The position numbers and the translations under genes were made by a program. Below are positions 4,931 through 15,193 of a DNA stretch of 64,000 nucleotides, piece after piece. Origin of the DNA: Collibacillus ludicampi (GTDB taxonomy: Bacteria > Bacillota > Bacilli > Tumebacillales > BOQE01); assembly GCF_023705585.1 (NCBI RefSeq), contig NZ_BOQE01000001.1, forward strand, positions 1,564,501 to 1,628,500, given 5' to 3'. Numbering within the stretch: position 1 is the stretch's first letter; every line of letters begins with the position of its first letter. The notes beneath the pieces were generated by a model that saw only the letters and a list, made by a program, of their open reading frames with translations, did not search any database and was not told where the DNA came from.

Positions 4931-5009
4931 GTTGCGATTTTTCAGAATATCTTTCCTCTTCACCGACTATACTCTAGTAACACGCAAAACTAGATGAGAG
5001 GTGAAAGCG

Positions 5010-5291
5010 GTGAAGTGGAAGGATTGGTGGGAACGTTTCCGGAAAACGGAGAAAGAAAGACAGGAAGAACAGGAAAGGAATGAAGAGAGGCTATTGATTG
5101 AGGAGATCGAGAAAGCGAAGGAGGAATGGTTGCAGGCCCAGTCCCGCCTTGATTGTGTAACTGATCCCGAGTTAATTGATCATGCCATTTTTTTGATCGA
5201 AGCCGCTGAGAAGAAATATATGTATCTGCTGCGCAAAGCGCGCAAGCAAGGGATCGTTAAGGAAATCCCTATGGTGAACGCCATTTCATAG
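5010..5291 (+). CDS. yaaL: YaaL (DUF2508) family protein
   Basis: 93 residues from the GTG at 5010, which is well spaced from AGAGGTGA; a GTG at 5001 would overlap that ribosome site. The protein is strongly charged: a basic/acidic helical N-terminal half and the conserved C-terminal stretch L-I-D-H-A-I-x-L-I-E-A-A-E-x-K-Y-x-Y-L-L-R-x-A-R. Function unknown in the family. In B. subtilis it sits between recR and bofA; here bofA is about 9.6 kb away beyond a catabolic island. Confidence 0.9.
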   Translation: MKWKDWWERFRKTEKERQEEQERNEERLLIEEIEKAKEEWLQAQSRLDCVTDPELIDHAIFLIEAAEKKYMYLLRKARKQGIVKEIPMVNAIS

Positions 5292-5292
5292 G

Positions 5293-5333
5293 AAAAAACG
5301 AGGTGCCTCTCTTATGAGGGAACCTCGTTTTTT
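5293..5333. terminator. Bidirectional terminator between yaaL and MFS gene
   Basis: AAAAAACGAGGT and ACCTCGTTTTTT form a 12-bp stem with an inner CCTC/GAGG stem. A-run on one side and T-run on the other let it serve both convergent genes. Confidence 0.9.
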
Positions 5334-5348
5334 CATCGTTTAGATCGA

Positions 5349-6611
5349 TTAATATCCTCGTTTTGCAAGAATCAACCCGCTTAAACCGCCGATCAGAGCA
5401 AAGATGATCAGATACGTAAAACCGACGGAAAAAGAGATGCCAAGAATATAGGTACCGATCGCGGCGATGATGTTCTCCAGCCCGTTCAACAGTCCTGCAC
5501 CGGTTCCTACATTATGGCTGGGGAACATACGTTGCAGAGAACTCCAAATCGTTGGTAAGACCACTCCGTTCATAGCGGAAGAAATGGAGATCAGAATCAT
5601 GGCGAGTGCAAGATTATCCGCGTGTGTTCCCAGAAAGAGCCCTACACCGGCAATAATGGTTCCGATTCCGGCGAAGATCGAGCGTTTCATTAGGCGGTCG
5701 CTGGCAAATGCGGTCAAGATAATACATACGGTCATCAATATATAAGGGAGCATATACCAGAAACCGGTCATATGCAGAGAAAGATGACGTACCTTGATGA
5801 GATAGGAAGGAAGCCAGAACAAAATCCCGTAGAAGACGGTAGCCATACCCGACCAGTTGATCAGCAGGAGCCAAAAATCCGTTTTGCTTAATACTTCACC
5901 TACGCTCACCTGTGTGGATGCGCTTTCATCCTTGCGCCCTGCCTGAATGTAAGCCAGCTCTTGGGAGGATACAAATCGGCTTTCTTCCGGGCGGTCTTTC
6001 GCTACGATCCATATGATCGGTGCCATAGCAAGGATACCGACTAATGCCATCACGATGAAAGGCGATTTCCATGTGCCCGTTGAAAGAATGAGCCATGTGA
6101 CGAAAGGACCTGTAATGATCGGCCCCATGGTCAGCCCGAATTCCCAGAACATATTGGCGCGCGCTCGTTCGTGTGATGGGAACCACTCTTTCACCCATTT
6201 GGAGTTGAGCGGCCAATGCATACCTTCACCAAGACCCAAGAGAATACGAGAGAAAATGAGGGCCAATGAACTCCAGACAAAGCCGGTGAACAAAGTCATC
6301 AATGACCACCAGATGAGTGCGAACAGGGCGATTTTACGGGGACCGAAGCGATCGCTGAGATAGCCGCCAAATATATTGGACAAACCGTACGTAAAGAGAA
6401 AGAGGCTGTTGGCGAGAGCGAGCGCATGCGTAGTCACCACGCCGTCTTTGACCATCTCTGGACCTGCGATCGAAATGTTGGTACGGTCGATATACGAGAT
6501 CAGCAATAATACCCACAAAGCAACGGCAAACCACCAACGGAAATTGGTTTGTTGATGACTGTTTGAACGATCATTCCATTGAGATGATACTGGATTCCGT
6601 AATGTTGACAC
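5349..6611 (-). CDS. MFS transporter, anion:cation symporter (ACS) type
   Basis: 420 residues with about 12 hydrophobic segments. The loop after segment 2 reads G-G-Y-L-S-D-R-F-G-P-R-K, the major facilitator signature, and the segment-4/5 region (G-L-G-E-G-M-H-W-P) matches the ACS family of organic-anion symporters (hexuronate, glucarate, phthalate). ATG with GGAGGC upstream. It is the last gene of the catabolic island, but a 165-base gap with two palindromes precedes it, so it may have its own promoter. The substrate is probably a carboxylate or hydroxyacid, inferred from context. Confidence 0.88.
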   Translation of the reverse strand: MSTLRNPVSSQWNDRSNSHQQTNFRWWFAVALWVLLLISYIDRTNISIAGPEMVKDGVVTTHALALANSLFLFTYGLSNIFGGYLSDRFGPRKIALFALIWWSLMTLFTGFVWSSLALIFSRILLGLGEGMHWPLNSKWVKEWFPSHERARANMFWEFGLTMGPIITGPFVTWLILSTGTWKSPFIVMALVGILAMAPIIWIVAKDRPEESRFVSSQELAYIQAGRKDESASTQVSVGEVLSKTDFWLLLINWSGMATVFYGILFWLPSYLIKVRHLSLHMTGFWYMLPYILMTVCIILTAFASDRLMKRSIFAGIGTIIAGVGLFLGTHADNLALAMILISISSAMNGVVLPTIWSSLQRMFPSHNVGTGAGLLNGLENIIAAIGTYILGISFSVGFTYLIIFALIGGLSGLILAKRGY

Positions 6612-6679
6612 AGGTATGCCTCCTTTACATTGAGATGTGATTGAAAGAAGATTGGGGATTTGGATTAAAATATATTTTT

Positions 6680-6713
6680 AATTTAATAATTAAATTGCAT
6701 ATAAGAATATGCA
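6680..6713. promoter_or_regulatory. Two adjacent palindromes upstream of MFS gene (candidate operators)
   Basis: 6680-6696 is the perfect palindrome AATTTAATAATTAAATT. 6696-6713 is TGCATAT-AAGA-ATATGCA. They abut in the AT-rich gap between the two MFS genes and could be regulator sites or part of a promoter for the ACS transporter. Function inferred. Confidence 0.45.
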
Positions 6714-6776
6714 TGATTATAAAAATTTAGGACAAATGTGTCTGTCGTTTATTCATATGAGAAATTTCAAGTATCC

Positions 6777-8042
6777 TTATGTGAGTTCACGTCCTTTTGT
6801 CTCTGGAAGGAACAAAATCACCAGTATTGCAGCGATGCCAAAGGAAATTGCCGTGATACTGAAAGCTGCTCCGAGCCCCATCGATTTGGCGAGAGTGCCT
6901 ACGATAAAAGGAGCGGTTGCTGCCAAGGCTCTTCCAAAGTTGTAACAGAATCCTTGCCCAGTTGCACGAATTGATGTTGGAAACAATTCCGCCAAAACAG
7001 CACCAAAACCGCTAAAATACCCGGATCCAAAGAAAGCAACCAGCGGTCCGAGAAGTAGTAAACGAGTGGCATCATGCGTGAAGCCATAAAACGGTACCAG
7101 AATAGCCGCTAATCCAAAGAAGAGAATAAACGTAGCTTTACGTCCAATTTTATCTGCCAATAAGCCGAACGCAACGTACCCGAGCCATGCTCCCACTTGC
7201 ATAATAACGATCCAACCAGTTTGTTTGACAATACTGAGCCCTGCACCTCCTTGTGAAACAGATGTGGCTAGATAGGAGGGAATCCAGGTAAATAATCCCC
7301 AATATCCAAATTGTGCACAAATACTCAAAGCAGAACCTAAAATCGTCCAGCGAACCACTTTTCGATCGAATATTTTAATGACAGAGCCTTCTTTTTCAGT
7401 ATCTGACCTTGTATTTTTGCGAGCTTCCCAGATCTCCGGTTCTTTGGTGCCTTTTCGGATCAAAAAAGTAACCAAAGCAGGAACGATACCGAAGAAAAAC
7501 ACGCCCCTCCAGCCGAAAAGCGGAATGAGGAGACCGCTTACGACTGCTGCCAATGCATATCCGATCGCCCAGGAACCTTGCACAATTCCCATGGCTTTAC
7601 CGCGATGTTCAGCGGGCCATGATTCAGTGATCAGCGCTGCACCCGCAACCCATTCTCCCCCCATGCCGAGACCCAGGAAAGTGCGTAAAATGGCTAATTG
7701 AGTAACGGTTTGTGAAAACCCGCATAATGCGGTAAAAACTGAATAAACGATGATACTGATCATTAATGAACGGGTTCGCCCGAATTTATCGGCAAGAATT
7801 CCAAATATTAAACCACCCAAAGCGGAACTTAAAAGTGTGAGAGTCGCCAAAAATCCCCCCATGGATTTGTCCATATGTAAATCGGACATTAAGTAAACCA
7901 ATACCATCGAATATAACATGACATCCATGGCATCCAACATCCATCCCAAACTTGATGCCAATAACGCTTGCCACTGAGCTGGAGTGATTTGCCTAAACCA
8001 AGGACGAGTTTGTACAGAACGGTTCATTTCCACTTGCGCCAT
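6777..8042 (-). CDS. MFS transporter (aromatic acid/sugar acid symporter type)
   Basis: 421 residues starting at the ATG with GGAGGAT upstream; an upstream extension of 19 codons overlaps the preceding gene and lacks a better ribosome site. About 12 membrane segments, with the signature G-x-L-A-D-K-F-G-R-T-R in the first half and G-L-L-A-D-K-I-G-R-K in the second. D-A-M-D in segment 1 recalls the AAHS (aromatic acid:H+ symporter) and SV2/sialate-type groups. The upstream gene ends 17 bases before, so the two are co-transcribed. Likely imports the compound degraded by the island. Confidence 0.88.
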   Translation of the reverse strand: MAQVEMNRSVQTRPWFRQITPAQWQALLASSLGWMLDAMDVMLYSMVLVYLMSDLHMDKSMGGFLATLTLLSSALGGLIFGILADKFGRTRSLMISIIVYSVFTALCGFSQTVTQLAILRTFLGLGMGGEWVAGAALITESWPAEHRGKAMGIVQGSWAIGYALAAVVSGLLIPLFGWRGVFFFGIVPALVTFLIRKGTKEPEIWEARKNTRSDTEKEGSVIKIFDRKVVRWTILGSALSICAQFGYWGLFTWIPSYLATSVSQGGAGLSIVKQTGWIVIMQVGAWLGYVAFGLLADKIGRKATFILFFGLAAILVPFYGFTHDATRLLLLGPLVAFFGSGYFSGFGAVLAELFPTSIRATGQGFCYNFGRALAATAPFIVGTLAKSMGLGAAFSITAISFGIAAILVILFLPETKGRELT

Positions 8043-8059
8043 ACGTGATCCTCCTTTTG

Positions 8060-8932
8060 TTATGTCGAAAGTCCTAGCAAAATAGCCGGATTCTGGCATG
8101 CCATTCTGTGTATTTCTTTTTCTTCCAATCCGTATTCCAACAATAGTTCAATAAATTTCTGATAACCTACCGTCGGTGTGGGATGGTTTGCTTGTCCGAA
8201 GTCTGTTTGCAGTATGCATCGCTCTACACCCAATTGACGAATTCCTTGTACCAATTCTTCAGGTTCAATTGACTTCCATTTAGGCATTAATGTAAGCATT
8301 GATTTTTCTACATAGGCCCCCAGTGCTACGAGTTCACATTGCAGTGAAAGTTCCATTTTGTTAATTTTTAGGTCAGGATGAGCGACTAAAATTTTCCCCA
8401 ATCCCCGCTCCGCTGCCGTCTGCACCAAGACTTTCGTCTCTCGAGGCGATAGATGTCCGGTAGCCAGACAAACATCACTTTCTTTGATCAAATCGATGAT
8501 GTCATACACAACGGGTAATAGTTTTCCATTTTCATCGAAAATTGTGATTCCTTTTTGGGGTAATAGACGAACGGTCGATCTTTGTTCTTTATAGTCACTT
8601 TGTCCTTGATAATATTCAATGTGATTTCGTGCGGATCCGGTAGGCATCCAAATCAACTTGGCTCCTTGCTGAATCGCCAGATCCACCGCATAAGGGTTAA
8701 GACCGCCTACATATTCGTTCAAAACAAGGGAACCGTACACTTCGATTCCTTGTACGATTTTACTGACTAATTTCGCTCTTGAAACCGTTGATTCTTCATG
8801 CGCCTTCAAAACGATTGCCCGCATGCCTGCCGCTTTCGCCTGTTCCGCTAATTGAAAATCATCGACCGAGCGGGGAAAAATACTTGGACTGGAGTGAACA
8901 TGGATATCGATAGCTCCTTCTAAAAGATTCAT
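8060..8932 (-). CDS. DUF6282-like metal-dependent hydrolase
   Basis: 290 residues. The N-terminus has D-I-H-V-H-S-S-P, a metal-binding HxH motif of the amidohydrolase/PHP superfamily. Further conserved features are V-L-K-A-H-E near residue 44, A-T-G-H-L near 162, V-A-H-P-D near 182 and Q-T-D-F-G-Q near 244, all plausible metal or catalytic residues. The second of two consecutive ATGs is best spaced from GGAGG. I assign it to the DUF6282 group by these motifs. The reaction is unknown; context suggests hydrolysis of a lactone, amide or similar precursor. Confidence 0.7.
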   Translation of the reverse strand: MNLLEGAIDIHVHSSPSIFPRSVDDFQLAEQAKAAGMRAIVLKAHEESTVSRAKLVSKIVQGIEVYGSLVLNEYVGGLNPYAVDLAIQQGAKLIWMPTGSARNHIEYYQGQSDYKEQRSTVRLLPQKGITIFDENGKLLPVVYDIIDLIKESDVCLATGHLSPRETKVLVQTAAERGLGKILVAHPDLKINKMELSLQCELVALGAYVEKSMLTLMPKWKSIEPEELVQGIRQLGVERCILQTDFGQANHPTPTVGYQKFIELLLEYGLEEKEIHRMACQNPAILLGLST

Positions 8933-8995
8933 CATAACACCTCCGTTCCTTGTATGATCCGTTTTAAAGAAAGATCATCTTCTTGGTATTACGTT

Positions 8996-9730
8996 TTATA
9001 CTTCAAGAAGAAATGTTTGGCCAGCGGAAGGTGATGGATCAGGAACGAACACTTGTACGCTGCTTTTGCTGAATGGTTTTACTTTTACATCTCCATCATT
9101 TCGGATAATCTGTAACAAGCGGTCATGACCGGGCACTATAAGATCTGCCCATTCGCGTATCACTTGTATACTCGATTGGCTTCGCTTTGCATCCCATGCC
9201 ATGTCAACATGTCCCGTCAGCAACTCTTTCATGTTCTTGATCGTATCAGATACCAACGCCCAACGACTCCCCTCATATTCAAGAAGCAAGGAATAGAGCC
9301 CGGGTGTATGACCGGGAGTGTGTAACCAATGGATCCCTTCTGCTCTTCCCGACGTACCTGATAAAATGCTCAATCTTCCGCAATCTCGCAATGCTGGAAA
9401 CATTTCGAGCGGAACAGCCAAGTCCCGTGCCCCGTTCTTTTCGATGTGCCAGATTTCCTCCTCATGTAAATAGAACGAGGCGTTCGGGAAAAGACCAAAA
9501 TTGACAGCATGATCGAAGTGAAAATGGCTTATGAATACAGCGCCGATATCGGAAGGCTGAACTCCAAACGATTGTAATCTGGAAATCAATGTATAACGCT
9601 CATTAAAGCCAAGCGTATCAAACAAAATCGGTTTTCTGCCCTCCATCCGGATCAACACACAACTGCTCCAACCAAGAAAACCGCGGTCAGATCTTCCGGG
9701 AAATCCTTGAAACAGTACATCAATCTGCAT
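8996..9730 (-). CDS. MBL-fold metallohydrolase
   Basis: 244 residues. The zinc motif H69-x-H71-x-D73-H74 (S-H-F-H-F-D-H-A) is intact. A later histidine (H-T-P-G-H-T-P-G, near residue 138), a D in V-S-D-T and a final H in V-P-G-H-D complete the metallo-beta-lactamase site. The arrangement resembles lactonases and other small-ester hydrolases. It follows glcF by 12 bases in the island operon. A lactonase role is possible but not proven. Confidence 0.82.
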   Translation of the reverse strand: MQIDVLFQGFPGRSDRGFLGWSSCVLIRMEGRKPILFDTLGFNERYTLISRLQSFGVQPSDIGAVFISHFHFDHAVNFGLFPNASFYLHEEEIWHIEKNGARDLAVPLEMFPALRDCGRLSILSGTSGRAEGIHWLHTPGHTPGLYSLLLEYEGSRWALVSDTIKNMKELLTGHVDMAWDAKRSQSSIQVIREWADLIVPGHDRLLQIIRNDGDVKVKPFSKSSVQVFVPDPSPSAGQTFLLEV

Positions 9731-9742
9731 TCTTCTCCCCCC

Positions 9743-11086
9743 TTATATCTCAATCCCGCAAGCTTCCGCCAAGAGTTCAACGAGATGCACGGCTCGAACT
9801 TTGTCTTGCAACCCTTCTCGGATAATGCCCATCTTCATTTGCAATAAGCATCCAGGGTTCGTTGTGATGATGGTCGTAGCACCCGTATTTTTTACTGTCG
9901 ACATCTTGTCATCCAAAATGTCCATGGATTCATTGTAATTTACAATATTGTAAATTCCCGCTGATCCGCAGCACTTATCCGGATTCTCCATCTCGCGAAG
10001 CTCGATACCAGGGATGGATCGAATCAGCTGAAGGGGTTCTTTTGTAACCTTTTGTACGTTGGTCATATGACAAGATCGTTGGTAGGTCACTACTTCCTTC
10101 TTTTGATTGGTTTGCTTTACAATTGGAAGCGGACCGGTCATCGTGAGTACTTGGCTGATATCTCTGGTTTTCTCCACGAACGTACGGGCACGAGGCTCCC
10201 ATTCCGGATCACCGCGAAAGAGATGATCATATTCGATCAACATGGCGCCGCAACCGCCAGCATTGTTTACGATAAAATCGAGAGGCTCGCGGTTTGCTGC
10301 TTGTTCAAACGCCGTAATATTCTGCTTCGCTAACTGTTTCGCCGTTTCGAGATCTCCGGTATGTGCATGCAAAGCGCCGCAACATGTTTCCCCTTCGATC
10401 ATCACAACTTCACAACCTGCTTTTTGCAAGAGTTGCATACTCAAGCGATTGATTTTCTCAAAAATGGCGTCCATGACACAACCGGTGAAAAAAGCGACCC
10501 GATATTTAGGTTTTCCTTGAGCCGGAAAGCGGACAGGGCGTTTCGCCCGTTCAACCGGGCTAGGTAAGGTCGGGAGCAAAGCTTCAAATTCCCCAAGGTG
10601 ATTCGGGAGGAGGCGAAGAAATCCACTGTGTCTGGCAATTTTTTGTAAACCACTTTTCTGATAGAACCATACGAAATTGGCAAGCCGGTTCAGCCGTTTC
10701 TTATTTGGAATCACTGAGTGTAAGAGGATGTTCTTCCATCCCTTCGAGGGAGATGATTCCTCTTCTCTCAGGTGTAAAAGTGATTTTGCAGATTCATAGA
10801 TTTTTCCATATCTCACTCCGGTGGGACAAGCCGTCTCACAGGCACGACAGCCCAGACATTTATCGATCGAATCGGCCAACAAATTGAGATTGGTGAGTTT
10901 CCCTTCTGCTGTCATCTTGACCAGATTGATTCTTCCACGGGGTGAATGGGTCTCCTTCCCCATCGTTTGATAGGTCGGGCAAGCCGGCAGGCAATATCCG
11001 CATTGGACGCAACTGAAAGTTTCATAATAGGCTAAAGTTTTTTTCAAGTCAGTCAATTTGTTCTCTACCGTTTCTGTTTTATTCAT
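9743..11086 (-). CDS. glcF: GlcF-type iron-sulfur subunit of 2-hydroxyacid oxidase
   Basis: 447 residues. Two ferredoxin 4Fe-4S motifs: C26-x2-C29-x2-C32-x3-C36-P and C77-x2-C80-x2-C83-x3-C87-P. Two CCG-type domains follow (G-E-T-C-C-G near 236 and N-P-D-K-C-C-G-S-A-G near 376). This is the electron-transfer partner of GlcD, passing electrons from 2-hydroxyacid oxidation to the quinone pool. The start overlaps the end of the upstream GlcD gene by 8 bases, indicating translational coupling. Confidence 0.92.
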   Translation of the reverse strand: MNKTETVENKLTDLKKTLAYYETFSCVQCGYCLPACPTYQTMGKETHSPRGRINLVKMTAEGKLTNLNLLADSIDKCLGCRACETACPTGVRYGKIYESAKSLLHLREEESSPSKGWKNILLHSVIPNKKRLNRLANFVWFYQKSGLQKIARHSGFLRLLPNHLGEFEALLPTLPSPVERAKRPVRFPAQGKPKYRVAFFTGCVMDAIFEKINRLSMQLLQKAGCEVVMIEGETCCGALHAHTGDLETAKQLAKQNITAFEQAANREPLDFIVNNAGGCGAMLIEYDHLFRGDPEWEPRARTFVEKTRDISQVLTMTGPLPIVKQTNQKKEVVTYQRSCHMTNVQKVTKEPLQLIRSIPGIELREMENPDKCCGSAGIYNIVNYNESMDILDDKMSTVKNTGATTIITTNPGCLLQMKMGIIREGLQDKVRAVHLVELLAEACGIEI

Positions 11087-12497
11087 CAGTCAACACCAAC
11101 TTTTGTCCCGGTTCCGGAAAGATTTTTCCGGGGTTCATAATGTTATTGGGATCCCATGCTTTCTTGATACGTCTCATCATCTCGAGTCCGACTGTACCCA
11201 ATTCCATTTCCATAAACGGTGCTTTCATCGTGCCAATCCCGTGCTCACCGGACAGAGTTCCACCCAATTCAATCGCGGCGGCGAAAATTTCGGAGACAGC
11301 CTGTTCCACCCGCCGCATTTCTTCTTTGTCTCGTTTATCGGCAATAATATTGGGATGGAGGTTGCCGTCACCAGCATGTCCGAAGACCACAAGATCGATG
11401 TTGTACTTTGCACGGATCTCTTTCAGCCTTTTAAACATATCAGGGATTTTGCTGCGCGGGACCGTCGCGTCTTCGGAAATTTTGGTGGGTTTGATCTTGG
11501 CAATCGCGGGAGACACGAGTTTGCGCGCTTTCCACAACTCCTGTCGTTCCTTATCATTTTTTGCCATTCGGATTTCCCTTGCTCCCACCTGTTTGCAGAT
11601 CTCGCGAACAGAAGCGATTTCATCCGCTACGGCATGGGGATGCCCATCCACTTCGATTAACAGTATCGCTTCCGCATCGGTAGGCAGACCGCAAGGTTCA
11701 TAATTTTCCACAGCAGCGATCGAGGCCTGGTCCATCAATTCCAATTTTGACGGCAGAATACCCGAAGACAACACTTTAGAAATCGCCCGTCCGGAATCAA
11801 CCAGATCGTCAAAAATCGCCATGAGTGTTTCAGAGGCCGGTGGTTTCGGAATTAAACGCAGAATCGCCTCGGTGATGATTCCCAAAGTTCCTTCTGAACC
11901 GACAATCAATTTGGTCAGATCATAACCTGTTACATTTTTGACGGTTCTTCCGCCTGTACGAATCACCTCTCCCTCGGGGGTGACCACTTCCAAGCCGATC
12001 ACGTAATCTTTCGTAACCCCATATTTTAATCCGCGAGGTCCTCCCGAATTTTCCGCCAGATTGCCTCCGATGGTGGATACACCGGAGCTGCTGGGATCAG
12101 GGGGATACATCAATCCCTTCTCTTCAGCCGCCTTGTGGATTTGGGATGTAAGGACACCCGGTGAGACGATTGCAACCAAATCTTCCTCATCGATCAGTAG
12201 TTTTTGGTTCATTTTCGACATGTCACACACGATCCCGCCTTGTACGGGAAGCGGACCTCCACTTAAACAGGTGGAATGCCCGCGCGGGGTGATGGGAATC
12301 TTATATTGATTAGCAAACTTAACCAGTTTAACCACTTCATCCGTGGTGACCGGTTGTACGACAACATCAGGCAAATACGTGCCAAACGAAGCATCGAACG
12401 AATAGCTGTAAAGATCGTGTTCTTCCCACAATACCCTTCTTTGGTCGCTGATGATTCTTTTGATTTCGTCCAAGAGTTTCGATTGGAATTGTGTCAT
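11079..12497 (-). CDS. glcD: GlcD-type FAD-linked 2-hydroxyacid oxidase subunit
   Basis: 472 residues. N-terminal FAD-binding PCMH domain with P-R-G-H-S-T-C-L-S-G-G and N-L-A-E-N-S-G-G-P-R-G-L-K-Y-G. C-terminal FAD-oxidase domain with F-G-H-A-G-D-G-N-L-H-P and the catalytic-region G-E-H-G-I-G. This family oxidises glycolate, D-lactate and other D-2-hydroxyacids to 2-oxoacids. ATG with AAGGGG upstream; the LarA-like gene lies 45 bases before. The exact substrate cannot be read from the sequence. Confidence 0.93.
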   Translation of the reverse strand: MTQFQSKLLDEIKRIISDQRRVLWEEHDLYSYSFDASFGTYLPDVVVQPVTTDEVVKLVKFANQYKIPITPRGHSTCLSGGPLPVQGGIVCDMSKMNQKLLIDEEDLVAIVSPGVLTSQIHKAAEEKGLMYPPDPSSSGVSTIGGNLAENSGGPRGLKYGVTKDYVIGLEVVTPEGEVIRTGGRTVKNVTGYDLTKLIVGSEGTLGIITEAILRLIPKPPASETLMAIFDDLVDSGRAISKVLSSGILPSKLELMDQASIAAVENYEPCGLPTDAEAILLIEVDGHPHAVADEIASVREICKQVGAREIRMAKNDKERQELWKARKLVSPAIAKIKPTKISEDATVPRSKIPDMFKRLKEIRAKYNIDLVVFGHAGDGNLHPNIIADKRDKEEMRRVEQAVSEIFAAAIELGGTLSGEHGIGTMKAPFMEMELGTVGLEMMRRIKKAWDPNNIMNPGKIFPEPGQKLVLTDE

Positions 12498-12542
12498 GGA
12501 TATATACCCCTTTTTGAAAAACCATTTCGTTGAGGTTGAATT

Positions 12543-13838
12543 TTACCATTTTATCCTTCCTGTTTGATCGAATTGTAGCGGAAGCGGTCCCTCGATCCGT
12601 TCAATGTTTTCTTTATTTTTCAATTCCCGGTAAATAGGCTCCGATACCCACAATTCATCAAGATGCAATGTATTTTTTATGTAGACGAGTCGAATCGTTT
12701 CCGGATTTTTGAGTTTAAGAGCCTTAATAGCTCCCTCTAACAGTTTTTGTTCTGTCGGAAAGGTCATGGGTATAAACGCCCGGCAGACAAACCCGCTTGT
12801 CAAACAATTCAAGTACGTCGCTTTCTTGTCGATTTGGGCAACGACTGCTTCCGTTGTAAAATCGGCTAACCCGATCCCGGTGGCATTCCCGTGGGACTCT
12901 TTCGATAATCCGAGCACAGCCAGATATTTGATCAAAGGCTGTTTGGGTTCAGGCATCCCTTGAATCCGCAGACGCCCGATAATGTTGGTGTCCATGCCTG
13001 TACCGCTAAAATTCTTCCCCATTTCGCCGACCAGGCAGAGGTCAATCTGCTGCACGGGGAGAGAGGGCATCATCGCTTTGGCTTTTTTCAACAATCCCTT
13101 TTCTTCCTGAAAGATACGATTTGCGGGAATCCCTTGAATAATGGCTGTTTCTTCAAAAGCGTTTTCAACAATGGCGATTCCGCCAAGAATCGGGGCATGT
13201 TTCAAGATCACACCTGCGATCGTCGGGATGGCCTGTGCCAATAGTCCGGCGCCTAAACTGTGAACCATGTCCGCCCCTTTCGCCCTGCCTAAGCCAACAG
13301 CCATCATCTTGAGCAGACCGCTTTCATATTCTCCATGAAAAGAAGTATGTGGTTTCACACGATTGACAACAAGAATTCCGTCCGCTTCATAGGCTTCTTT
13401 CGCAATATAGACAGGCAGACCCGCCAAATCCTCACTGGCAGTCGTTATTTGCCCCTCTATATATGCTTCTTCTGTAGCACCGATTTGGATGACTTGATCG
13501 GAACAAGAAACGGTAGTTCCAATCGCTGTTTCCGTAATGCCCAAACTGTTTAAAACTTCTCGTTGGCCTGAGGCTTCCCCGCGTCCGTGACTCCCCATAG
13601 CCGCCACGAGAAAGGGCGAGTATCCCCGGTCTTTGAGATGCTTGACGATCGTCTGCAGGATTTGCACGATGTTTTTGATTCCTCTTGAACCAGCCGTGAT
13701 CGCAATTCGCGAACCGGGGGAGAGCCTCGTATTCTGCAGACATACATCGACCGCCTTGATGGTCTCGGATTGAATGTCAGATACGGATTGTCCTGAAAAA
13801 TGCTGTTTCAGCTTATAAAGAGATGGCCATTCAGTCAT
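12543..13838 (-). CDS. LarA-like (DUF2088) nickel-pincer-type racemase homologue
   Basis: 431 residues, close to lactate racemase length. Conserved features: A-M-G-S-H84-G, equivalent to the LarA catalytic-histidine region, and V-K-P-H164-T-S-F-H168-x8-K177, resembling the cofactor-binding H/K segment of LarA but with three extra residues between H and K. ATG behind AAGGAG. Just upstream of glcD, so it could interconvert the stereoisomers of the 2-hydroxyacid that GlcDF oxidises. No larB, larC or larE cofactor genes are in this window. Substrate and racemase activity are inferred. Confidence 0.75.
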   Translation of the reverse strand: MTEWPSLYKLKQHFSGQSVSDIQSETIKAVDVCLQNTRLSPGSRIAITAGSRGIKNIVQILQTIVKHLKDRGYSPFLVAAMGSHGRGEASGQREVLNSLGITETAIGTTVSCSDQVIQIGATEEAYIEGQITTASEDLAGLPVYIAKEAYEADGILVVNRVKPHTSFHGEYESGLLKMMAVGLGRAKGADMVHSLGAGLLAQAIPTIAGVILKHAPILGGIAIVENAFEETAIIQGIPANRIFQEEKGLLKKAKAMMPSLPVQQIDLCLVGEMGKNFSGTGMDTNIIGRLRIQGMPEPKQPLIKYLAVLGLSKESHGNATGIGLADFTTEAVVAQIDKKATYLNCLTSGFVCRAFIPMTFPTEQKLLEGAIKALKLKNPETIRLVYIKNTLHLDELWVSEPIYRELKNKENIERIEGPLPLQFDQTGRIKW

Positions 13839-13877
13839 ATATTCAACAACTCCTTGCGGGAGTTTTATCCTTTGAAC

Positions 13878-14576
13878 TTATTTTAAATATCTCAGCTTCA
13901 CATTTTGTAAATGTTGCCACATAGCCTGCTGCGCTTTTTCCGGATCTTGCTCTGCAATCGCATTCAAGATCTCTACATGCTCGGCCAAAACCATTTGGCT
14001 TTTACCCGGAATCTTTAAACTTTCACTTCTGCTTTGATGAACGCCTTGCAGAAATTTGTCAGATAGGAATTTTACCGCTTGTAATAACATGGAGTTTTGG
14101 CTCGCCTTTACGACTGAAATATGAAACGCATAATCCTCTTCTGCTGCCACCTGTTGAGCGGCAACTGCTTGTTCCAAATGATTGTAGGCGGTCTTTATCT
14201 TTTGCAAATCTGCTTCCGAACGCCTTATGGCAGCCAAATAAGCCGCTTGCCCTTCGATCCCCTGTCTTACTTCAAGCAGTTCGACAAGATTGACCCCATG
14301 AGGGTTAAGAATATCATTCATACGAGTGATCAGTTCTTCATTCTCGTCTTCCTTGAGAAAGACACCGATTCCTTGCATAATCCTGACCAACCCAGCGGAA
14401 TCCAATACACTGAATGCTTCTCTTACGGCACTTCGGGAAACAGACAATTTATCCGCTAACTCCCGTTCCGATGGCAATTTGTCGCCGGGTAGCAACTCCC
14501 CGTTCTCAATGGATGCCTTAATCTGTTCGATGATGTATTGATATATGCGTTTCTTTTGAATGGGTGCTAGTTTCAA
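13878..14576 (-). CDS. FadR/LldR-type GntR transcriptional regulator
   Basis: 232 residues starting at TTG behind AAGGATG. N-terminal winged helix with the GntR signature L-P-S-E-R-E-L-A-D-K-L-S-V-S-R-S-A-V-R-E (residues about 34-53). C-terminal all-helical FCD domain (V-R-Q-G-I-E-x2-A-A, metal-ligand histidines in Y-A-F-H and A-E-H). FCD regulators usually sense carboxylates such as lactate or glycolate. First gene of the eight-gene minus-strand island, so it probably autoregulates and controls the whole unit. Confidence 0.92.
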   Translation of the reverse strand: MKLAPIQKKRIYQYIIEQIKASIENGELLPGDKLPSERELADKLSVSRSAVREAFSVLDSAGLVRIMQGIGVFLKEDENEELITRMNDILNPHGVNLVELLEVRQGIEGQAAYLAAIRRSEADLQKIKTAYNHLEQAVAAQQVAAEEDYAFHISVVKASQNSMLLQAVKFLSDKFLQGVHQSRSESLKIPGKSQMVLAEHVEILNAIAEQDPEKAQQAMWQHLQNVKLRYLK

Positions 14577-14741
14577 AATGTATCATCCTTTTAAGAGGTT
14601 ATAAAATTCGGTTTCAGTTGAAGCGCATCCAACGAAGCAAAGAGCGGGTCATATGGAAGACAACCAATGCTCTTGGTACCAGACTATTGCTTCTCGAACT
14701 GCTCGGCTCTCTTTGGCTCCTTATGAACATACTCTTTAAAA

Positions 14742-14801
14742 GGTCTGGTGGCTGGGTGGTCTGGACAGTAACATGTTACAATAAACTTTATCAACAGTCA
14801 A
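14742..14801 (-). promoter_or_regulatory. Promoter and candidate operators of the catabolic island
   Basis: Read on the minus strand: -35 TTGACT (14796-14801), a 17-base spacer, -10 TAACAT (14773-14778). Just downstream, GGTCTGG occurs twice on the plus strand (14742-14748 and 14758-14764, 16 bases apart). A complementary CCAGAC lies near 14677 beside a TTGGTACCAG palindrome. Position and repetition suggest binding sites for the FadR-type regulator. The rest of this 347-base gap holds only the bofA control region. Confidence 0.55.
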
Positions 14802-14868
14802 TATAAACTTTTTAGAATATTTGCCCCCTGTTTATAGTTATGTCGTTTGCAGTAGAAGTTCGAGGAAT

Positions 14869-14897
14869 GGAACATATGGACTTTTCATACATACATA
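14869..14897 (+). promoter_or_regulatory. Possible sigma-E promoter of bofA
   Basis: CATACATA (14890-14897) matches the sigma-E -10 consensus CATACANT well. The upstream GGAACAT/ACATATG is a weak -35 at 12-14 bases. Known sigma-E control of bofA supports it, but the -35 is poor. Confidence 0.4.
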
Positions 14898-14923
14898 ATA
14901 GGACAAGGAGGGGAGTCGGGGAG

Positions 14924-15193
14924 ATGACTGCGTGGCAAGTTGTCAGTTTGATGGTTGGCCTGGTCGTTGTCTTATTGATTATTGCAAAGATTTTACGCGA
15001 TCCGGCGTACGCGATTATGCGCATGATCAAAGGTTTTATCGTCGGTGTGATCGCACTCTTGGCGATCAATTGGATAGGTACGGCGATCCATCTGCATATC
15101 CCGTTAAATCCTGTTACTGCTTTAATTGCAGGGCTGCTGGGCATTCCGGGGATCGCCGCGTTGCTTGTGATTCAGATATGGATTCTCCCATGA
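14924..15193 (+). CDS. bofA: BofA, inhibitor of pro-sigma-K processing
   Basis: 89 residues starting at ATG 14924, with AAGGAGG 12 bases upstream; an ATG 84 bases earlier would add a tail absent from the family. Two or three hydrophobic segments and the family hallmark H-I-P-L-N-P-V-T-A-L-I-A-G-L-L-G-I-P-G-I near the C-terminus. BofA holds SpoIVFB inactive in the outer forespore membrane until the sigma-K checkpoint. It should follow yaaL directly; here the catabolic island separates them. Confidence 0.93.
   Translation: MTAWQVVSLMVGLVVVLLIIAKILRDPAYAIMRMIKGFIVGVIALLAINWIGTAIHLHIPLNPVTALIAGLLGIPGIAALLVIQIWILP

Follow-up and report, generated by a model that had tools for sequence, protein, structure and literature searches.

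A LarA homologue, GlcDF and two candidate ring-opening hydrolases in a gene island between yaaL and bofA of Collibacillus ludicampi

The island and its chromosomal setting

We analysed a stretch of 64,000 nucleotides from Collibacillus ludicampi (contig NZ_BOQE01000001.1, positions 1,564,501 to 1,628,500; hereafter the window), in which eight minus-strand open reading frames (ORFs) occupy positions 5349-14576 between yaaL (5001-5291, plus strand), on the recR-yaaL side, and bofA (14840-15193), on the bofA/csfB side. Read from the promoter side, these encode a GntR-type regulator, a homologue of LarA, GlcD- and GlcF-like subunits of a 2-hydroxyacid dehydrogenase, an MBL-fold hydrolase, a DUF6282 protein and two MFS carriers (MFS2, then MFS1). 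The intergenic distances from GntR to MFS2 are 39, 45, -8, 12, 60 and 17 bp, and since each is at most 60 bp or an overlap, a single operon is plausible; 165 bp separate MFS2 from MFS1. The original prediction, made from the letters of this DNA, had described a minus-strand unit between yaaL and bofA that breaks the recR-yaaL-bofA order, and all eight ORFs indeed lie there. Its family labels are upheld by Pfam and NCBIfam, with "LarA-like" sharpened to group 22 of the nickel-pincer-nucleotide isomerases (NF052515). The upper limit that it gave, 14801, is not that of the genes, which end at 14576, and the intergenic stretch 14577-14839 holds a candidate promoter.

The interruption itself is clear from relatives. 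Of 41 genomes, that of the window among them, 33 have a BofA that could be located, and in 22 of the 24 relatives that could be scored bofA lies within about 1.3 kb of recR or yaaL; the distance from recR to bofA in the window is 9,968 bp. The island is real and lineage-specific at the yaaL-bofA site. Its GC content, about 41-50% per kb, is slightly under that of the flanks. We further note that in G002 and G010, both from the same order, the yaaL-bofA gap is filled by genes unrelated to the island, apparently a 2-oxoacid:ferredoxin oxidoreductase pair as judged by eye (L296, L295), along with an Nramp-like carrier in G010. This different cargo suggests that the site accepts varied genes and is insertion-prone.

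A group 22 LarA homologue and its cofactor

The gene at 12543-13838 (minus strand) scores 498.6 bits on NF052515 (cut-off 400). The protein is undetected by Pfam, and single-sequence and profile searches against solved structures returned only chance matches to TAL repeats, so that among the structure searches it is the fold comparison that supplies the link to LarA. In that comparison the model (pLDDT 92) aligned with twelve LarA-family structures at Z 18.2-20.3 over 307-326 residues, the best unrelated structure reaching Z 6.2, and Foldseek matched it to the LarA fold at E 1e-7. Six residues that are invariant in the homologue and 31 relatives (R52, H84, H164, K177, H193 and K275) follow one another in the order of R75, H108, H174, K184, H200 and K298 of LarA, the first five at similar spacing too, as compared along the chain; in LarA these first five supply the NPN-binding Arg, Lys and His and the two catalytic His. 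The protein thus resembles the LarA superfamily in its group 22 hidden Markov model (HMM) score and its fold and, as far as residue order tells, in its His/Lys/Arg set, and departs from it at the position of LarA D72, which is not Asp, and in its distance from solved LarA in sequence searches. From the sequence and the model it is a candidate 2-hydroxyacid racemase or epimerase; the literature searched reports no activity for group 22 homologues. The homologue in the window also has, at about residues 126-137, an insertion of 12 residues that is absent from all 30 aligned relatives.

Elsewhere, the genome encodes LarB (284 bits), LarC (228 and 129 bits) and LarE (354 bits), all above cut-off, and the nickel-pincer cofactor can therefore be made. 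Two of these genes, larE and larC, flank a block (L089:6028-15177; G000:C1:946-955 kb) in which, by eye, a 2-oxopentenoate hydratase, a 4-hydroxy-2-oxovalerate aldolase and an acylating acetaldehyde dehydrogenase can be recognised together with NadC-like and MoaB-like proteins, a ferredoxin and a 489-aa protein that NCBIfam does not match, and larB is found at 942 kb. A gene of the fumarylacetoacetate-hydrolase (FAH) family adjoins larC in this genome (L090:8915-11206), and genes of the same family lie near group 22 LarA homologues in L043, L154 and L157.

The dehydrogenase subunits and the two hydrolases

GlcD (11079-12497, minus strand; PF01565 and PF02913) is a FAD D-2-hydroxyacid dehydrogenase-like subunit that scores 524 bits on TIGR00387 (cut-off 567.9), and GlcF (9743-11086, minus strand; PF02754 and Fer4) is a two-[4Fe-4S]/CCG electron-transfer subunit that scores 250 bits on NF008434 (cut-off 333). 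The pair shares both subunits and the catalytic Arg/His/Glu set (R325, H374, H381, E418 and H419 of GlcD) with GlcDEF glycolate oxidase and GlcDF D-2-hydroxyacid dehydrogenases. Unlike GlcDEF, however, the island has no third ORF of the GlcE kind within 5349-14576 and both subunits fall below the glycolate-oxidase cut-offs, and the label "glycolate oxidase" was rejected on these grounds. The side-chain pocket of GlcD also differs, being polar and near-invariant (S329, K339, S341, F372 and N383). It is closer to the pocket of D-2-hydroxyglutarate dehydrogenase than to that of LDHD, which is hydrophobic (W351, S365, I407), except at Lys401 of the former: S329, S341, F372 and N383 stand against T390, K401, Y432 and N443, and the set is not reproduced in full. 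The replacement of Lys401 likewise led us to reject "D-2-hydroxyglutarate dehydrogenase" as a name for GlcD.

Two hydrolases lie downstream of GlcF. The first (8996-9730, minus strand; PF00753, Lactamase_B, E 1e-17) is an MBL-fold candidate lactonase with complete metal-ligand motifs (HFHFDH at 69, TPGHT at 138, SDT at 161 and PGHD at 200) whose nearest solved relatives are the AHL lactonase AiiA and 4-pyridoxolactonase. At 54.5 bits against a cut-off of 375, an AHL lactonase of the AiiA type was rejected. The second, the DUF6282 protein (8060-8935, minus strand; PF19799, E 8e-76), is a metal-dependent TIM barrel of the amidohydrolase fold: its model (pLDDT 95) aligns with dihydroorotase at Z 21, with PTE-like lactonases at Z 19-20 and with isoaspartyl dipeptidase at about 20, and the metal-ligand residues H12 and H14 (HxH), H161 and D245 are invariant in 38 sequences. 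Sequence searches of DUF6282 against solved structures gave chance matches only, and no paper on the family turned up in the literature searched. It may be a lactonase or an ester or amide hydrolase, a reaction that the fold alone does not name. Both hydrolases thus share fold and metal-ligand motifs with known lactonases of the AiiA/4-pyridoxolactonase and PTE-like/amidohydrolase types, but score far under the cut-offs of all named lactonase families.

Conserved clustering as two modules

We surveyed 398 genomes of the class for the LarA homologue, which had matches at E 1e-80 in 55 of them and a close clade (about 52-62% identity) that is small, and for DUF6282, which had a match in 49 and at least 59% identity at 14 places besides the window. 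The survey of GlcD orthologues covered 86 genomes; neighbourhoods were taken from loci no longer than 20 kb, and 64 GlcD loci were scored. A DUF6282 orthologue is present at 14 of these loci (window included), accompanied by MFS2 at all 14 and by a detectable MBL gene at 13. One module, DUF6282-MFS2-GntR-GlcD-GlcF, recurs in 13 genomes besides the window, including Aneurinibacillus terranovensis, Brevibacillus panacihumi and B. centrosporus, and 12 of these have the MBL gene. A second module, consisting of the LarA homologue, GlcD and GlcF, occurs in eight genomes besides the window, in one of which (G033) the LarA homologue is broken. Apart from the window, G052 alone combines the two modules; there larC comes next, and all that is left in the MBL region is a reading frame of 112 residues resembling the MBL C-terminus. 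Such decay is seen in two related genomes, as a LarA homologue in pieces (G033, L047) and as the MBL stub (G052, L046). A weaker DUF6282 group (41-47% identity) adjoins GlcD in ten loci.

Clustering is therefore conserved but modular. We dropped the view that the LarA homologue belongs strictly to the unit, since 12 of the 14 clusters with a DUF6282 orthologue do not have it. The co-occurrence across genomes that the original prediction looked for as support for one pathway is seen for seven of the eight genes, in the form of two modules, and fails for MFS1. That the modules are found apart, that MFS1 is not conserved and that other cargo sits between yaaL and bofA in G002 and G010 would all fit a chance gathering, where insertions are frequent, of independently useful genes that share no pathway; the tight operon spacing and the repeated co-clustering in many genomes from several families make this most improbable.

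In a report from 2020, the GlcD and GlcF COGs are linked by gene context to several groups of LarA homologues (PMC7583248), and the context of group 22 may be given in its Supplementary Table S1. No characterised operon with the set found here was met in the literature searched, in agreement with the original prediction, which knew of no named pathway with all of these genes. The island is thus a set of known enzyme families in a combination undescribed in that literature, with an informative swap.

The LarA homologue alternates with LhgO

Ten of the 14 clusters with a DUF6282 orthologue have a gene for LhgO, a predicted L-2-hydroxyglutarate oxidase, beside or inside them and no adjacent LarA homologue. 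The LhgO proteins in these clusters share 57-100% identity with that of B. panacihumi, and the four scanned (L055, L056, L058 and L207) score 586-606 bits on NF008726 (cut-off 299). Conversely, the LarA homologue is present in the window genome and in G052, neither of which encodes an LhgO above cut-off anywhere, and the groups of A. terranovensis, B. panacihumi and B. centrosporus have no group 22 LarA homologue genome-wide. Among the remaining clusters, G024 has LhgO elsewhere in its genome, and G018, whose cluster begins at a contig end, has neither. Over all 64 GlcD loci the LarA homologue is adjacent at nine, LhgO at 18 and both at none.

This alternation is spread over the GlcD phylogeny (FastTree), in which loci with the LarA homologue fall in four separate parts of the tree. 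Within one genus, sister GlcD proteins are accompanied by LhgO, MBL and DUF6282 in G006 and by the LarA homologue in G008. The same alternation is found where TAXI-TRAP carriers replace the MFS carrier (L044 and L045 versus L264, L270 and L275); among these loci, L044 and L264 are the ones for which HMMs bear out TAXI and TRAP. Such a pattern is expected if the LarA homologue and LhgO both handle the L-enantiomer of the GlcDF substrate. The sister clusters resemble the known LhgO route for breaking down L-2-hydroxyglutarate, which runs with or without CsiD, in that they pair LhgO with GntR, GlcDF, MBL, DUF6282 and MFS2, whereas the window has no LhgO and places the putative racemase in that slot; no CsiD was noted among the cluster genes.

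A proposed pathway and its substrate

We infer every reaction of the following scheme, along with its direction, the induction and the identity of the substrate, from these genes and their neighbours. GntR would repress the operon until an inducer binds, MFS2 would bring in the acid or its lactone, and MBL, DUF6282 or both would open the ring by hydrolysis. The LarA homologue, using the nickel-pincer cofactor, would interconvert the L- and D-acid and so supply D-acid to GlcDF, a step in place of which relatives would oxidise the L-acid directly. GlcD would then oxidise the D-acid through its FAD to the 2-oxoacid (2-oxoglutarate if our candidate is right), and GlcF would relay the electrons, with the quinone pool as their presumed acceptor. 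Entry of the product into central metabolism would explain the lack of further catabolic genes in the island. It is probable that a single 2-hydroxyacid is the substrate on which the racemase and GlcDF act one after the other. The chemistry first suggested for the island, namely uptake, lactone or ester opening, isomerisation and flavin/Fe-S oxidation, agrees with the folds, active sites and neighbours, from which the substrate has to be deduced.

Three lines of evidence put 2-hydroxyglutarate in the lead: LhgO in the sister clusters, the polar pocket of GlcD, and the presence of two ring-opening hydrolases, which would suit an acid that forms its own lactone. Indeed, 2-hydroxyglutarate lactonises by itself, and a bacterial lactonase for its lactone is cited in PMC8067704. 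The lactone also fits the neighbourhood in G217 (L214:5604-11367), where genes of the MFS2, DUF6282 and MBL types come directly after 5-oxoprolinase genes of the pxpA, pxpB and pxpC types, all on one strand and in a cluster that lacks GlcDF, since 5-oxoproline is the nitrogen analogue of that lactone. We tentatively favour, at somewhat less than even confidence, a substrate-induced island that degrades the L- and D-forms of a polar 2-hydroxyacid prone to lactonise, together with its lactone or a similar cyclic ester; the likeliest such acid is 2-hydroxyglutarate, with its gamma-lactone. The narrower proposal, that a nickel-pincer racemase replaces L-2-hydroxyglutarate oxidase in a 2-hydroxyglutarate/gamma-lactone pathway, is possible but doubtful.

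Several observations weigh against 2-hydroxyglutarate. Lys401 of D-2-hydroxyglutarate dehydrogenase corresponds to Ser341 in GlcD, the invariant Lys339 being two residues off, and the loop after H164 of the LarA homologue reads T-S (T165-S166) where known 2-hydroxyglutarate racemases have Y-F. LhgO is named by HMM alone, and its mutual exclusion with the LarA homologue is modest (hypergeometric P 0.04, a value that ignores kinship). Moreover, nearly all GlcD orthologues have the same pocket whatever their neighbours, including orthologues that lack these partners (37 of the 64 loci have neither the LarA homologue nor LhgO), and the pocket therefore does not single out 2-hydroxyglutarate. Its conservation is weakened in the same way as proof of a common substrate; the motif marks a subfamily and not the pathway of the island. 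Finally, group 22 is not uniform, as its wider contexts indicate.

Wider group 22 contexts and other substrates

Group 22 relatives at 45-48% identity adjoin a DUF1537 D-threonate kinase, a PdxA-type dehydrogenase and TRAP carriers (L158, L160 and L161), while a further group 22 gene (L156) lies near sulfopyruvate decarboxylase-like alpha and beta genes and UxaA-type genes. It is these D-threonate kinase and sulfopyruvate decarboxylase-like contexts that set parts of the group apart, suggesting that other members epimerise tetronates at C2 and that there may be a racemase of the sulfolactate type among them.

The tetronate-like contexts bear on a pathway for C4-C6 aldonates or aldonolactones, in which MBL or DUF6282 would open the lactone, the LarA homologue would act as a C2-epimerase and GlcDF would yield the 2-keto-aldonate. 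The small polar T165-S166 loop would suit such a substrate, known LarA homologues act on gluconate (the gluconate 2-epimerases) and on 2,3-dihydroxybutyrates, and MFS1 resembles the D-galactonate carrier family. The island and its sister clusters lack the kinase, dehydratase and aldolase, however, and it is LhgO that occupies the racemase position in the sister clusters, so that an aldonate substrate appears unlikely.

A sulfolactate-type or other strongly charged acid, with the racemase feeding a sulfolactate oxidase, is suggested by the neighbours of L156 and by the UxaA-type protein and Ldh2-type dehydrogenase near the LarA homologue-GlcDF genes of G142 (L153). The sulfopyruvate decarboxylase matches at L156 and the neighbour matches at L153 are below curated cut-offs, the window cluster has none of these genes and lactone hydrolases would have no purpose in such a pathway, which we regard as very unlikely here.

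A third alternative is an operon for lactate or another simple 2-hydroxyacid, in which the racemase would turn L- into D-acid for GlcDF and the hydrolases would cut oligomers or esters. The nearest solved relatives of GlcD, a glycolate oxidase and the lactate dehydrogenase LctD, would fit this, as would a regulator nearest to LldR, GlcC and PdhR types. The LarA homologue, however, falls in group 22, outside the groups of lactate racemases; G008 encodes true LarA by a gene of its own, GlcD has a polar pocket and not a hydrophobic one, and LhgO is again present in the sister clusters. We consider a lactate-type substrate quite improbable. In G008 (L040:9405-19255) this true LarA (563 bits on NF033504, cut-off 460) shares the cluster with the group 22 homologue, GlcD and GlcF, and an FAH-like protein and a 2-hydroxyacid dehydrogenase are encoded there as well.

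Returning to 2-hydroxyglutarate, the proposal, if correct, would give first functions to group 22 LarA homologues and to DUF6282 and would mean that one pathway can use either a racemase or a stereospecific oxidase to the same end. The natural swap between racemase and L-acid oxidase beside the same D-acid oxidase lets the substrate be read, and the group 22 proteins near this clade, together with DUF6282, become enzymes that can be assayed on a few candidate substrates. Were 2-hydroxyglutarate lactone the substrate, the island would offer stereospecific enzymes for a medically interesting metabolite.

Regulation, transport and boundaries

The GntR/FCD regulator (13878-14576, minus strand; PF00392 and PF07729), of the LldR/GlcC/PdhR-like kind, starts with TTG and has LldR as its top NCBIfam match, at 141 bits and under cut-off. 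Upstream lies a candidate operon promoter on the minus strand (TTGACT-17-TAACAT; 14768-14801), recognised by its match to the consensus, whose promoter-like pair (14801-14773) overlaps a perfect 12-bp palindrome, GTAACATGTTAC, at 14768-14779. This palindrome, which occurs once in the window, is a possible operator, and we treat both elements as consensus-level hints. A shared GntR operator was sought in the other clusters and not found, and GTAACATGTTAC is absent upstream of their GntR genes.

MFS2 (6777-8042, minus strand; PF07690) is an aromatic-acid/sialate-type carrier by its match to TIGR00895 (252 bits, below cut-off) and starts at an ATG at 8042 preceded by AGGAGG. Its counterpart (66-77% identity) adjoins DUF6282 in most clusters, and MFS2 is probably the uptake carrier. 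MFS1 (5349-6611, minus strand; PF07690), an anion:cation symporter-like carrier of the ACS/D-galactonate type (TIGR00893, 198 bits, below cut-off), does not recur in the other clusters beyond the usual MFS background. The 165 bp that set it off from MFS2 hold a promoter-like site of its own, and its membership in the unit is doubtful. Beyond MFS1, a convergent terminator between yaaL (plus strand) and the island (minus strand) is predicted at 5292-5334, where a terminator-like scan match coincides with a 16-nt inverted repeat with A/T flanks.

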